5,575 nucleotides of DNA. Source: Thermodesulfovibrionia bacterium (GTDB lineage: Bacteria; Nitrospirota; Thermodesulfovibrionia; UBA6902). Position 1 is the stretch's first letter, and each line of letters opens with the position of its first letter. Positions 17-5,575 of this stretch are shown piece after piece. Where the stretch lies: NCBI GenBank assembly GCA_947258735.1, contig CAMYJJ010000195.1, forward strand, positions 1 to 5,575, in the 5' to 3' direction. Under the pieces are notes generated by a model. It was not told the origin of the DNA. It saw nothing but the letters and a program-made list of their open reading frames with translations, and made no database searches. A program made the translations under genes and the position numbers.

Positions 17-1288
17 TTAATACATATCAAAATTATCAAAATGTGCATGACTGCGCACTGCAGCCAGACCAATCATCCCTGAACTGACATCAGTAAAAGA
101 ATACTGTGCCATCTGTATATAGCCGCTGTCATCCCTGTCATCATCTACATAGAGGGTTGTTGTATTACCGTCAATAACAACTCTCATCCGGTACCACCTT
201 GAGGTATCTATCGGATATTCAGTTACATCCATTTCTTTCCAAGCGCCGTCATAATAGCCGATTCTCCACTCATCTGCTCCTTCCCTGGCAGCTGCATACT
301 TGAAATCATCCGGCCCCTGATAATCAAAGATAATAAAGCCGTTGAATATAGTCCCGTCAGGCCGGCTGAAATAATCGGCTTCAATGACTCTATTGTCAGT
401 TGTCATGGAATAATCAACCGTTGATATTGCTATATCGGATACGCCTGCATCAGCACTGTACTCGCCCCCTTCGACAGCCCATGTCCCGTTTCCCTGTGTC
501 CATACATCAGCATTACCTTCATTGAAATCGTCACTGTATGCAAATGGTATATACATATCAAAATTATCAAAATGTGCATGACTGCGCACTGCAGCCAGAC
601 CAATCATCCCTGAACTGACATCAGTAAAAGAATACTGAGCCTTCTGTATATAGCCGCTGCCATCCCTGTCATCATCTACATAGAGGGTTGAGGTGTTGCC
701 GTTAATAACAACTCTCATCCGGTACCACCTTGAGGTATCTATCGGGTCTTCGGTTACGTCCATATCGTTCCATGTGCCGTCATAATAGCCGATTCTCCAG
801 TTATCTGCTCCTTCCCTGGCCCCTGCATACTTGAAATCATCCGGCCCCTGATAATCAAAGATAATAAAGCCGTTGAATATAGTCCCGTCAGGCCGGCTGA
901 AATAATCGGCTTCAATGACTCTATTGTCAGTTGTCATGGAATAATCAAGCGTTGATATTGCTATATCGGATACGCCTGCATCAGCACTGTACTCGCCCCC
1001 TCCGACAGCCCATGTCCCGTTTCCCTGTGTCCAACCATCAGCAATACCATCATTGAAATTATCGGAAAAAAAGATACAGTCTGGATCAGATTGAATTGGA
1101 CATAAATCACAAACATCTCCGACTCCATCATTGTCAAAATCTTCCTGATTGTGGTTAGGAGTATCGGTGCAGTTGTCATCACAGTCCGCTGTATTTCCGC
1201 CTGTACACGGAGTATCCCCTGAATAGCCGCTGAAATCGCCATCATCATATATACCGTCATCATCAGAATCATTCTCCGGAGAAGGCAC
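17..1288 (-). CDS. C-terminal part of frameshifted gene D: TSP3-like calcium-binding segment plus two LamG/ConA-like domains
   Basis: The only start-like codon in this frame is a GTG at 1288-1286, which has no Shine-Dalgarno sequence. The frame is open further upstream, to 1456, and that extra stretch encodes the missing end of the paralogue domain (FTLFFTST, then FVPSP). I therefore read this as the 3' part of the gene starting at 1923, not as an independent gene. Residues 6-71 (from the GTG) are rich in Asp and contain six Cys, with DSDDDG and DFDNDGVGDVCD motifs typical of thrombospondin type 3 calcium-binding repeats. Residues 74-246 and 251-423 are two copies of a beta-sandwich domain of the LamG/concanavalin-A-like superfamily (DDFN-G-AD-W, NGTW, GEYS, FNGFIIFDYQ, RWYRMRVVI, FDNFDMY). 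Such domains usually bind carbohydrate or protein. The protein ends exactly at the end of the second copy with TAA; no PEP-CTERM or other sorting tail follows. Domain calls come from motif reading only. Confidence 0.8.
   Translation of the reverse strand: MPSPENDSDDDGIYDDGDFSGYSGDTPCTGGNTADCDDNCTDTPNHNQEDFDNDGVGDVCDLCPIQSDPDCIFFSDNFNDGIADGWTQGNGTWAVGGGEYSADAGVSDIAISTLDYSMTTDNRVIEADYFSRPDGTIFNGFIIFDYQGPDDFKYAGAREGADNWRIGYYDGTWNDMDVTEDPIDTSRWYRMRVVINGNTSTLYVDDDRDGSGYIQKAQYSFTDVSSGMIGLAAVRSHAHFDNFDMYIPFAYSDDFNEGNADVWTQGNGTWAVEGGEYSADAGVSDIAISTVDYSMTTDNRVIEADYFSRPDGTIFNGFIIFDYQGPDDFKYAAAREGADEWRIGYYDGAWKEMDVTEYPIDTSRWYRMRVVIDGNTTTLYVDDDRDDSGYIQMAQYSFTDVSSGMIGLAAVRSHAHFDNFDMY
20..530 (-). repeat. 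Second copy of the 531-bp tandem repeat encoding LamG-like domain 2
   Basis: Partner of 551-1061. Two long blocks are identical in both copies: 20-106 (87 bp, same as 551-637) and 292-417 (126 bp, same as 823-948). Most differences fall in short clusters around 151-165, 226-256 and 503-530. The stop codon follows directly after the last repeat residue, so the array simply ends with this copy. Confidence 0.93.
551..1061 (-). repeat. First copy (in coding order) of the 531-bp tandem repeat encoding LamG-like domain 1
   Basis: Aligns without any gap to 20-530 at a constant offset of 531 bp (177 codons: 173 domain residues plus a 4-residue IPFA linker). By hand I count about 30 nucleotide differences over about 510 bp and 17 residue differences over 173. 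Differences are clustered rather than spread evenly. Confidence 0.93.
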
Positions 1289-1437
1289 AAACTGTGTATC
1301 CGCTCCGCCGCCATATAATGCCGCAGCATGGAAGGTTGGAGGTGAGGTACTGGTAAAGAACAGGGTAAAGCTCTCATTTCCGGCTTCTATAGCACTGAAC
1401 GGTGCGAAAGAATATATAACGGCCTGACCATCCGTAT

Positions 1438-1459
1438 CTATGCCTTTGTAGGGCCGTCA
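1438..1459 (-). pseudogene. Frameshift site joining the two parts of gene D (17-1923)
   Basis: In the upstream frame the coding sequence reads GPTKA and then TAG (1440-1438). In the frame used downstream, the nearest upstream stop is TGA at 1459-1457, so the shift must lie between these two stops. Downstream of the shift the frame encodes DTDGQAVIYSFAPF and EAGNESFTLFFTST, matching RSVAYNFSPL and EAGDESFTLFFTST in the paralogue at 3776-4555. Restoring the frame needs a net +1 nt (or a 4-nt insertion, which would give exactly the paralogue's spacing). The local sequence ACAAAGGCATAGATA has no long homopolymer and no canonical A-AAA-AAG slippery heptamer, so a mutation or an assembly error is likelier than programmed recoding. 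Confidence 0.8.
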
Positions 1460-1923
1460 TCGGCATCTCCGGAACCCAGACCGAATATGTCGACATCTGC
1501 ATCATTTGTATAACCTATGCCTGTTACCGTGTGCAGAGCAGGTACGAGTATGCCGTTGATTAAAGTTGTTAAGCTTGCCAGTGCATTGCTATCATGATCA
1601 ATCTGATAGACATATACATATTCTCCGCTATTGATTGTTATACTTTCAACAATATCTGCAGGATCTGAAGCAGGATCAACAGAAATGGGAAGGGGCCCGA
1701 AATCCTGATAGCCTGATTCTCCGGCTATGGGGTCGCCTGTTGAATACTTAAAAACTGCGAAATGAATATCTGATGACCATTGAGATGCGGTGAATGTCAC
1801 CGGGGCAAGGTTTCCACTTGCGCTCGTTGAGCTGAATTCCGGCAAGAGAAATGAATTGGAGTCTACAGGAAAAAAAACCGGGAATAGCAGGATCATTGTT
1901 GCCAAACTTAAAATCCTTGTCAC
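1438..1923 (-). CDS. N-terminal part of frameshifted gene D: secreted paralogue of the neighbouring PEP-CTERM proteins
   Basis: I place the start at GTG 1923-1921. AAGGAG lies 6 nt upstream (1930-1935), and this start gives a compact signal peptide (TRILSLATMILLFPVFFPVDS). The frame stays open upstream to an ATG at 2016, but that codon overlaps the -10 box of the likely promoter and cannot be the start. The 161 residues after GTG align throughout with the three downstream-type paralogues in this window: SSTSASGNLAP, W-SDIHFAVF, AGESGYQDFG, YVYVYQIDHD, IGYTNDADVDIFGLGSGD and DDGPTKA. They lack the C...C insert seen in the proteins at 2205-2957 and 3776-4555. Reading stops at TAG 1440-1438, in the middle of the conserved domain, and homology continues in another frame. 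If the frame were restored the protein would be about 635 residues. The domain family has no function I can name; an exported location follows from the signal peptide. Confidence 0.8.
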   Translation of the reverse strand: MTRILSLATMILLFPVFFPVDSNSFLLPEFSSTSASGNLAPVTFTASQWSSDIHFAVFKYSTGDPIAGESGYQDFGPLPISVDPASDPADIVESITINSGEYVYVYQIDHDSNALASLTTLINGILVPALHTVTGIGYTNDADVDIFGLGSGDADDGPTKA

Positions 1924-2014: not shown

Positions 2015-2043
2015 ATTTTAAAACAGATTCAGTTGAATGTCAA
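2015..2043 (-). promoter_or_regulatory. Sigma70-like promoter of gene D
   Basis: On the minus strand a perfect -35 TTGACA (2043-2038) is followed after 17 nt by TAAAAT (2020-2015, 5 of 6 consensus bases). Transcription would start near 2008, giving a leader of about 85 nt before GTG 1923. The location rules out a start at 2016. Confidence 0.75.
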
Positions 2044-3044: not shown

Positions 3045-3070
3045 GCTTTTTTTTCTTTATATCTGCACAC

Positions 3071-3078
3071 TTGCGCAA
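3071..3078 (-). promoter_or_regulatory. TTGCGCAA palindrome upstream of the gene C promoter
   Basis: A perfect 8-bp palindrome TTGCGCAA lies 26 nt upstream of the -35 box. Seven of its eight bases recur at equivalent positions before genes A and D. It is a candidate regulator-binding site with no assigned regulator. Confidence 0.45.
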
Positions 3079-3088
3079 TAATATAAAA

Positions 3089-3120
3089 TAAGCGCACCAC
3101 TCTGTCATATGGTGCGCTTA
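3089..3120. promoter_or_regulatory. Conserved hairpin in the upstream module of gene C
   Basis: An 11-bp perfect inverted repeat, TAAGCGCACCA (3089-3099) with TGGTGCGCTTA (3110-3120), encloses a 10-nt loop. It lies about 45 bp upstream of the -35 box, so it is outside the predicted transcript of gene C. The corresponding hairpin before gene A keeps the stem although two outer A-T pairs have become G-C pairs. On the plus strand it is followed by a T-rich stretch. It could be an insulating terminator or a DNA-level regulatory element. Confidence 0.6.
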
Positions 3121-3530
3121 TGCATTTCTTCTTTTTCTATTTAAATATGTATGTATCAAATTGTATGCCACGCTTTATGAAAGCTTTTAATTTTCTGCAG
3201 TTCCTATAAATTTCAATTAGTTATGATATAGCTCCATTTGCACAAGATAGTTTCATGCGATTAAGAAATAGTATGTGGCACAAGGGTTTCTGGCGCACAT
3301 GCGTGCCGGCGCACACAGACAATCTCTTCTCTGCAAAAAAGAAGATGCTCTTATTCATGAATTTAAAGCAGATACTGAAAATGCGCCTTGTATATAAAGT
3401 GGAGTTATTCCCGTGCAGGATGACAATAGTGACGCAGGCTGATCGCAGGAACAGCAACTCATGCCCGCCTGATAAGAAGCATGTATCATCCAGTTGTCTA
3501 TTCTGCTGATACACCTGTGCGAGATATTAA
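3121..3530. other. Non-coding stretch without a supportable gene
   Basis: About 400 bp between the upstream module of gene C and the MITE-like element. Open frames exist on both strands (for example 3221-3514 minus and 3255-3509 plus) but they overlap each other, lack ribosome binding sites and encode no recognisable motif. The only pattern I see is TCATGCCCGC at 3459-3468, repeated at 3570-3579 within the element to the right, followed in both places by a loosely similar sequence reaching ATC(AT)CCAG. It may be a decayed copy of the same palindromic repeat. Confidence 0.6.
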
Positions 3531-3775: not shown

Positions 3776-4555
3776 TTACTTTAACGTGCTTCGTTGTTTT
3801 CTGAATCTCCTGAGTCCTAATGTTGCACCGCCGGTAATAAAGAGAATGGAACTGACCGGCTCAGGTGCGGGAGATGGTAAGTCCGCAGTAGCACTTGAAT
3901 TTCCAAATAATGATCCCGCATGAAAACCGGGGTCTTCTGTACTTGTAAAGAACAGGGTAAAGCTTTCATCCCCTGCCTCTACAACTCCCAGAGGTGAAAA
4001 ATTATATGCAACACTTCTGGTAATATCGGAGTACGTTGCCTTGACCGGGCCGTCACCGGCATCTCCGGAGCCCAGGCCGAAAATATCGACATCCATGTCA
4101 TTGGTAAAACCCACGCTGGTAATCGTATTTATATCATGAGCATATATTCCCATACTGTAACTTGTTAAACTGGCCGCAGCATTAATGTCATGCTCAATCT
4201 GATAAACATACAGATACTCATTGCTATCAACGATTATAGGGTTTATGGCATCCAGATTTGTGGAATCACAACCCGCCGGAGAAAACGGCATGCCACAAAC
4301 AGTGATAGGATAAGACGAGCCAAAATCCTGAAAACCTGATTGTCCTGCTATCGGATCTCCGCCAGAAAATACCGCAAAATGTATATCACTCGTCCAGTCT
4401 GCAGTGGAGAATGTAGCCGGTGCAAGATTACCACCCGCGCTAGTAGTTGAATAGTCCGGTAACAGGCCTGCAGTAGCATTCGGCAGTAGAGCAATGGGGA
4501 GTATGAGAAGAGACATCACTGCTATGTATAAACATTTTTTTCTATAAATCTTCAT
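3776..4555 (-). CDS. PEP-CTERM sorting domain protein (gene B), secreted, function unknown
   Basis: ATG 4555-4553 is preceded by GAGAGGGG with a 5-nt gap. The 259-residue product has a signal peptide (KIYRKK start, hydrophobic core at about 9-25, likely cleavage after NATA, residue 29). The shared central domain follows: STTSAGGNLAPATF, HFAVFSGGDPIAGQSGFQDFG, YLYVYQIEHD, NDMDVDIFGLGSGDAGDGP and ESFTLFFTSTEDPG. Like gene C it has a two-Cys insert (CGMPFSPAGC). The tail is a PEP-CTERM signal: PEP at 231-233, SSILFITGGATLG, then RRFRKQR. It is expected to be an exosortase substrate released to the surface or extracellular matrix. It starts 43 bp after the stop of gene A with no room for a separate promoter, so the two are probably co-transcribed and end at the terminator at 3717-3749. 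The closest relative in the window appears to be gene C. The central domain has no function I can assign. Confidence 0.93.
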   Translation of the reverse strand: MKIYRKKCLYIAVMSLLILPIALLPNATAGLLPDYSTTSAGGNLAPATFSTADWTSDIHFAVFSGGDPIAGQSGFQDFGSSYPITVCGMPFSPAGCDSTNLDAINPIIVDSNEYLYVYQIEHDINAAASLTSYSMGIYAHDINTITSVGFTNDMDVDIFGLGSGDAGDGPVKATYSDITRSVAYNFSPLGVVEAGDESFTLFFTSTEDPGFHAGSLFGNSSATADLPSPAPEPVSSILFITGGATLGLRRFRKQRSTLK

Positions 4556-4598: not shown

Positions 4599-5321
4599 TT
4601 ATCTCTTCATAAAACGTCTGAATCCCAGCGTTACACCTCCGGTTATAAAGAGGATCGAACTGACCGGTTCAGGTACCACTGGGGCCTGTGGTGTAGGTAA
4701 CAACTGCTGATCCTGATACCCTGCGTTGGCCAGCGTGGCTGTATTATAATCAGGGGCATTGGTGCTCGTCAGGAACATGGTATAACTCTCATCACCTGCT
4801 TCAACATGACCAGTAGAATAATCCCATAAAATTCCGCCTCCGGGGAAATTGGCCCAGGCATAGTCAGGGCCGTCATCAATGTCGCCTGAACCCAGGCCGA
4901 AAATATTGACATAAGTGTCATTTGTATAGCCGACACTCGTCACAGAACTCTCTGCTGATGAAAAAATCTGAAGACTGGTCAAATTTAATGCTGCCTGAGC
5001 GTTTATGTCGTGGTCAATCTGGTACACATATAAATACTCTCCTGGATTGATTGACATTGTCGTGGAAGGGGGAAAGGCAAAGGGTAAGCCCTGGTATCCA
5101 GTTTCTCCGTCTATCGGATCTCCTGCACCAAAATCATATACCGCAAAATGAACATCAGTTGTCCAGTCAGGAGTGGTGAAAGTGGCCGGGGCAAGGTTTC
5201 CGCCAGCGCTGGTAGTACTCCAGTCATCCAGAAGACCCGCGGATGCATTCGAAACCATAAACAACGGAACCAATACAACCGATAATGCTAAAACAAGGAA
5301 CTTATAACTATCCTTTCTCAT
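4599..5321 (-). CDS. PEP-CTERM sorting domain protein (gene A), secreted, function unknown, first gene of the A-B operon
   Basis: ATG 5321-5319 has AGGAG 5 nt upstream. The 240-residue product has a signal peptide (MRKDSYK, hydrophobic core at about 8-23, likely cleavage after NASA, residue 28). It then carries the family domain: STTSAGGNLAPATFTTPDW, HFAVYDFGAGDPIDGETGYQG, EYLYVYQIDHD, NDTYVNIFGLGSGD and ESYTMFLTST. It lacks the two-Cys insert of genes B and C and diverges most after GSGD, where it has WANFPGGGILWDYS in place of the usual YSD-RSV-YNF. A Pro-rich linker (PTPQAPVV) leads to the PEP-CTERM signal: PEP at 217-219, SSILFITGGVTLG, then RRFMKR. The role is probably an exosortase-processed surface or matrix protein; no enzymatic motif is visible. 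It is transcribed from the promoter at 5409-5437. Confidence 0.93.
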   Translation of the reverse strand: MRKDSYKFLVLALSVVLVPLFMVSNASAGLLDDWSTTSAGGNLAPATFTTPDWTTDVHFAVYDFGAGDPIDGETGYQGLPFAFPPSTTMSINPGEYLYVYQIDHDINAQAALNLTSLQIFSSAESSVTSVGYTNDTYVNIFGLGSGDIDDGPDYAWANFPGGGILWDYSTGHVEAGDESYTMFLTSTNAPDYNTATLANAGYQDQQLLPTPQAPVVPEPVSSILFITGGVTLGFRRFMKR

Positions 5322-5437: not shown

Positions 5438-5462
5438 GGATTTTTTCTTTAAATATGCGGAC

Positions 5463-5469
5463 TTGCGCA
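5463..5469 (-). promoter_or_regulatory. TTGCGCA box upstream of the A-B operon promoter
   Basis: TTGCGCA lies 25 nt upstream of the -35 box, in the context ACTTGCGCA shared with the site before gene C (3069-3077). It is the third occurrence of the heptamer at this relative position in the window. Confidence 0.45.
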
Positions 5470-5480
5470 GATATGTGAAA

Positions 5481-5513
5481 AGGGCGCACCACTCCTTGGA
5501 GCTGATGCGCCCT
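5481..5513. promoter_or_regulatory. Conserved hairpin in the upstream module of gene A
   Basis: AGGGCGCA (5481-5488) pairs with TGCGCCCT (5506-5513). An inner CTC/GAG stem (5492-5494 with 5499-5501) may extend it. It lines up with the hairpin at 3089-3120: both contain GCGCACCACTC, and the outer pairs differ in a way that preserves pairing. A T-rich run (5523-5529) follows on the plus strand. Function unknown; a terminator of an upstream gene outside the window is an alternative. Confidence 0.6.
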
Positions 5514-5575
5514 GATGCACTTCTTTTTTTGTTTCCAATTAATTTTTTCAAAATATGTGACAATATAATAACCAA

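Follow-up and report, generated by a model that had tools for sequence, protein, structure and literature searches.

A PEP-CTERM paralogue with a TSP3-like segment and two CBM66-like LamG domains in the probable place of its sorting tail, on a contig of a Thermodesulfovibrionia bacterium

Introduction

To our knowledge, the ectodomains of PEP-CTERM proteins and the final destinations of these proteins are mostly unknown. One ectodomain may come with alternative C-terminal signals, an idea embodied in the choice-of-anchor families of NCBIfam. PEP-CTERM proteins are described as typically lacking homology beyond the tail, and homologous pairs with and without PEP-CTERM, together with rapid growth of paralogous families, have been reported (PMC1569441). 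Families whose members end in GlyGly-CTERM, LPXTG or PEP-CTERM have been described as well (PMC3237569). Here we analyze a contig of 5,575 bases from a Thermodesulfovibrionia bacterium (phylum Nitrospirota; assembly GCA_947258735.1, contig CAMYJJ010000195.1), referred to as the window, which on its sequence and open frames holds four genes, all on the minus strand. Three of them (4599-5321, 3776-4555 and 2205-2957) have PEP-CTERM tails; the fourth, gene D (17..1923), shares their ectodomain and continues into a TSP3-like segment and two LamG domains. Gene D is probably a PEP-CTERM paralogue that lost its tail at a PSP linker and received there a TSP3-like spacer together with one CBM66-like LamG module, which was duplicated later.

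Results

Gene D lies in two pieces in different frames, and the ectodomain spans both. Piece 1 (1438..1923, minus strand) runs from a GTG at 1923, closely preceded by AAGGAG, to a TAG at 1440-1438 and carries a signal-peptide-like start and most of the ectodomain. It can be aligned to all 11 tailed family members and is closest to gene 3776-4555 (88 of 154 aligned residues identical). Piece 2 (17-1447, stop at 19-17) opens with the 57 terminal residues of the ectodomain (1277..1447, minus strand), which end in FVPSP and have the same gene as their top match (27/50 identical; score 151, compared with a maximum of 55 in 200 shuffles). Gene D therefore belongs to the ectodomain family, above shuffles, on either side of the frameshift. 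The alignment stops at PSP, and ENDSDDDG follows from 1276 onward. The alignment reaches residue 222 of gene 2205-2957 and residue 229 of gene 3776-4555, with PEP one residue further on, so that for these two LPSP genes an earlier note on this DNA was right to place the switch at the very point where a PEP-CTERM would be expected to start; the gap between the aligned ectodomain and PEP is longer in gene 4599-5321 and in the relatives from outside the window.

No sorting tail, with its C-terminal PEP motif, hydrophobic helix and basic terminus, was found in gene D, as the earlier note had observed. A profile of the 11 tails scored 59-63 bits on the three neighbors and below 6 bits on all other open stretches in six frames (best 20 stretches), which leaves no concealed PEP-CTERM remnant in gene D by this profile, and at E up to 1 neither piece was matched by TIGR02595. 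A TIGR04161 match inside the first LamG domain (13.1 bits, cut-off 33) was taken as chance. At E up to 1, Pfam matched neither the tailed genes of the window nor piece 1, and on the 11 family members it gave weak matches only, to NapE in four (best E 0.072) and to PF07589 PEP-CTERM in two (0.047). NCBIfam returned the tail plus one weak match, and the Protein Data Bank gave two short weak matches (E 0.008 and 0.13).

The segment that follows the linker is Asp-rich and 68 residues long (1073..1276, minus strand). It is 61-75% identical to segments of eight other proteins, three of which (P0114, P0132 and P0137) are listed with PF02412, and its own score against that family, Pfam TSP_3, is 15.1 bits with a cut-off of 25. 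We accordingly call it TSP3-like. Because this score is under the cut-off, the label 'calcium-binding' given to it earlier rests on the Asp-rich sequence and on the relatives, and Ca2+-dependent binding by gene D would be a conjecture from these.

The two LamG-like domains proposed earlier are borne out: Laminin_G_3 (PF13385) passes its cut-off over two stretches (34.4 and 27.6 bits, score and cut-off). LamG domain 1 (551..1072, minus strand) is recognized by profile and by predicted structure, and LamG domain 2 (20..550, minus strand) is 90% identical to it in protein. At the DNA level the copies share a 300-base stretch that is 93% identical at a spacing of 531, with a synonymous divergence (dS) of 0.121 and a nonsynonymous divergence (dN) of 0.051; this points to a recent tandem duplication, which the earlier note had not mentioned. 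The model of 20-1288 had a mean predicted local distance difference test score (pLDDT) of 78, with a confident LamG part and a TSP3-like part below 50, and the ectodomain model was poor (mean pLDDT 46). Ranked by Z, the best structural match to the LamG part was the CBM66 of Bacillus subtilis levanase (Z 23.7, root-mean-square deviation 2.0, 160 residues, 18% identity), followed by further lectin-like chains at Z 17-21; ranking by Foldseek E-value put galectin-8 and one laminin pair first and CBM66 fifth. The sequence profile also selected CBM66 (E 6e-6; next neurexin, 0.009). The predicted fold is thus that of CBM66, a carbohydrate-binding module to which the LamG domains appear closest, and they may bind sugar. 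Reported ligands of CBM66 are the ends of fructans and, in a single instance, xanthan (PMC11002231).

Both incoming parts recur elsewhere. A search with the second half of gene D matched 61 proteins, one of them the window's own. The LamG module is found at 46-59% identity in 11 proteins (P0089-P0093, P0095-P0097 and P0099-P0101), three times in P0086 (43-46%) and once in P0105 (46%), with many weaker matches besides. Its flanks vary and include tandem-95 and VCBS repeats, regions matching choice-of-anchor Q or beta-helix families and the middle of a FlgK, and a scan of 10 of these proteins gave no PEP-CTERM match at E 0.01. The subtilisin-like protease P0121 has the TSP3-like segment at 75% identity, and seven more proteins have it at 61-65%. 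Nine LamG-module loci comprise two from one metagenome-assembled genome of the Nitrospiraceae (46-56%) and seven from other bacteria, mostly Planctomycetota (31-40%); at E 1e-10 the module occurs in 2 of 395 genomes of the phylum of a Nitrospiraceae genome. Judged by sequence, both parts are promiscuous, with occurrences in unrelated proteins both within and beyond Nitrospirota, and the LamG module is uncommon in the phylum.

Two side observations concern these modules. P0097 (719 aa) is a FlgK-type protein (TIGR02492, 318 bits) with a LamG module at residues 329-497 that is 50.6% identical to LamG domain 1 of gene D, perhaps a flagellum with a putative sugar-binding module. A C-terminal module of the form ~AYDxAxDGDTIQxQAxxFTExL...GGYDC stands beside LamG or TSP3-like modules in P0089, P0092, P0096, P0119 and P0121 and is apparently another shuffled part.

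The other full-length members found of the ectodomain family are tailed. A profile of the three tailed window genes was scored against 7994 candidates (proteins of ~140-440 aa) and gave 82 matches, four of them the window's own; 24 of the 82 were inspected as sequences. Among these, the eight full-length outside relatives (P0006-P0012 and P0014) all carry a tail, so that with the three window genes 11 of 11 full-length members other than gene D are tailed among the matches inspected. Most other inspected matches align mainly in the tail, P0018 and P0043 among them being named Nitrospirota. The tree of the 12 ectodomains, rooted at midpoint and with long branches for P0014, gene 4599-5321 and gene D, places gene D between tailed members (support 88/89). 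Since the other 11 members are tailed, replacement in gene D is the simplest reading, and the clean exchange at the PSP linker suggested by the earlier note would have run from tail to modules.

P0015 and P0016 are PEP-CTERM proteins with YMYQV and LTSN motifs that resemble distant ectodomain relatives and hint at a broader unnamed family. P0058 combines a precomputed PF13385 (LamG) match with a PEP-CTERM tail of this type at its end, so the presence of LamG does not preclude the tail.

The reading frame of gene D changes within 1438..1459 (minus strand), where, read by eye, piece 1 stops at 1440-1438 and the frame of piece 2 extends upstream no further than 1459-1457. The change is either an error in the sequence or a mutation that recently inactivated the gene, and a 635-residue protein, the restored product assumed in the earlier note, would require read-through: the ectodomain match does run across the frameshift, but the gene as assembled is broken. 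By eye, the zone holds neither a standard slippery heptamer (X XXY YYZ) nor a long homopolymer, and ribosomal frameshifting as a joiner of the pieces is unsupported. An independent GTG start for the TSP3-LamG part at 1288 was also rejected, with the nearest GGAG 14 bases off and no signal peptide after it (by eye).

The meeting of two frames at a stop, in a zone free of such signals, is what a decaying pseudogene would show, in which the fusion is real but has fallen out of use through the frameshift, leaving no long product. Against this, the two pieces together run for 635 codons with no second break, and dN remains below dS between the LamG copies. Pairwise, and at high dS, dN/dS between the gene D ectodomain pieces and the neighbors is 0.16-0.25 in five of six comparisons (the sixth has saturated dS), and 0.23-0.24 between neighbors. 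Such low values indicate constraint for most of the history of gene D and say nothing on present use. The AAGGAG is retained, as is a sigma-70-like match upstream of gene D (2015..2043, minus strand; TTGACA, 17, TAAAAT; 11/12 matches), which is suggestive only, because such sites are frequent in the window (23, compared with 15.9, standard deviation 3.4, in shuffles). Together these features say that gene D was probably in use until recently, and we regard the pseudogene as a rather unlikely account that still deserves weight.

A misassembly, in which two genes from one genome or from related genomes, one for the ectodomain and one for TSP3-LamG, were misjoined, is far less probable. The join is known from a single contig, which ends 16 bases past the gene D stop beside the 93% identical repeat; yet it keeps the frame and coincides with a domain boundary, none of the repeat families detected in the window crosses 1276, G+C content and G+C content at third codon positions agree on both sides, and named relatives of either half include Nitrospirota. 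Similarly improbable is that the untailed TSP3-LamG form is ancestral and the other members gained the tail: the midpoint root would permit a root on the gene D branch, but all 11 others carry the tail, even the most distant, P0014, and the modules combine with many other N-terminal parts.

The three neighbors precede gene D in the order of transcription (4599-5321, 3776-4555, 2205-2957, gene D) and are uninterrupted frames. Their tails, all on the minus strand, align as PEPVSSILFITGG and lie from ~4676 down to 4602 in gene 4599-5321 (TIGR02595, 17.2 bits), from ~3868 down to 3779 in gene 3776-4555 (20.2 bits) and at 2208-2291 in gene 2205-2957 (14.3 bits). Two exceed the cut-off of 16, and gene 2205-2957 is assigned to the family through its tail alignment. 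Genes 4599-5321 and 2205-2957 share an upstream element (alignment score 56, shuffle maximum 33) that is not clearly present before gene D (scores 30 and 28, the same as the best shuffles). The element (3049-3135 and 5441-5530) consists of a GCGCACCA/TGGTGCGC hairpin plus TTGCGCA or CTGCGCA-like bases, and one of its copies also scores as a terminator-like site. An inverted repeat of 21 bases (2142-2185, 95% complementary) lies between gene 2205-2957 and gene D, in a terminator-like placement for the former.

Discussion

We favor the replacement of a tail in gene D. The exchange at the PSP linker would have brought in the TSP3-like spacer with one CBM66-like LamG module, and tandem duplication of the module would have followed. 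The product would still be exported through its signal peptide but would lack the signal for exosortase. It would either be set free or be retained without a covalent bond, the likeliest means being attachment of its lectin-like domains to extracellular polysaccharide. A freely secreted partner that binds its PEP-CTERM neighbors or the polysaccharide, as the earlier note imagined, would likewise be conjecture. More tentatively, the family may have one ectodomain with two modes of display, the first through exosortase and the second through retention on exopolysaccharide by the duplicated CBM66-like module in place of tail-directed sorting; we think this possible but doubtful.

Several points weigh against this account of gene D. 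The gene is frameshifted as assembled and may yield no long protein, the join is known from one contig, and no intact ortholog, for which the earlier note had suggested looking, was found among long proteins, GTDB contigs or 395 genomes. No protein with the gene D ectodomain scored among 1483 long candidates (~350-1110 aa, chosen by words of gene D alone), and none of 13 stretches of GTDB contigs that fit a pattern was a relative. The ectodomain was absent at E 0.001 from all 395 genomes of the phylum of a Nitrospiraceae genome, a count that is uninformative without a genome known to match, and the ectodomain of gene 3776-4555 found no counterpart on plasmids. Sampling of the family is sparse, and an ortholog may simply fall outside the collections searched. 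The join is tidy but seen once and, with one contig and a broken reading frame behind it, has the standing of a lead and not of a result.

If the replacement is true, a paralogue with a sugar-binding-type module in place of the tail would be a natural experiment on tail function, and it would hint at the exopolysaccharide matrix as a destination. No description of this tail-to-TSP3/LamG join was found in the literature searched, mostly at the level of titles and abstracts. The nearest parallel is P0086 of Nitrospiraceae bacterium C4560_07360, which like gene D has a signal-peptide-like start, an N-terminal part and tandem LamG modules to the very end; unlike gene D, it has another N-terminal part, three modules and no TSP3-like segment among the matches. 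Compared with the CBM66 of the levanase (4AZZ, 4B1M), at 18% identity, the gene D module has no attached enzyme, and the likeness to the thrombospondin C-terminal region (2RHP, rank 14 in the structure search) is one of architecture only. Like the families with alternative C-terminal signals (PMC3237569), the gene D family has one ectodomain and differing ends, although the end of gene D is no known sorting signal. In contrast to the pairs with and without PEP-CTERM as described (PMC1569441), the tail of gene D is not merely missing; its position is taken by a TSP3-like spacer and lectin-type modules, in a gene that lies next to tailed paralogues. Tail swapping is already known in outline, and the exchange for TSP3-like and CBM66-like modules adds another instance.
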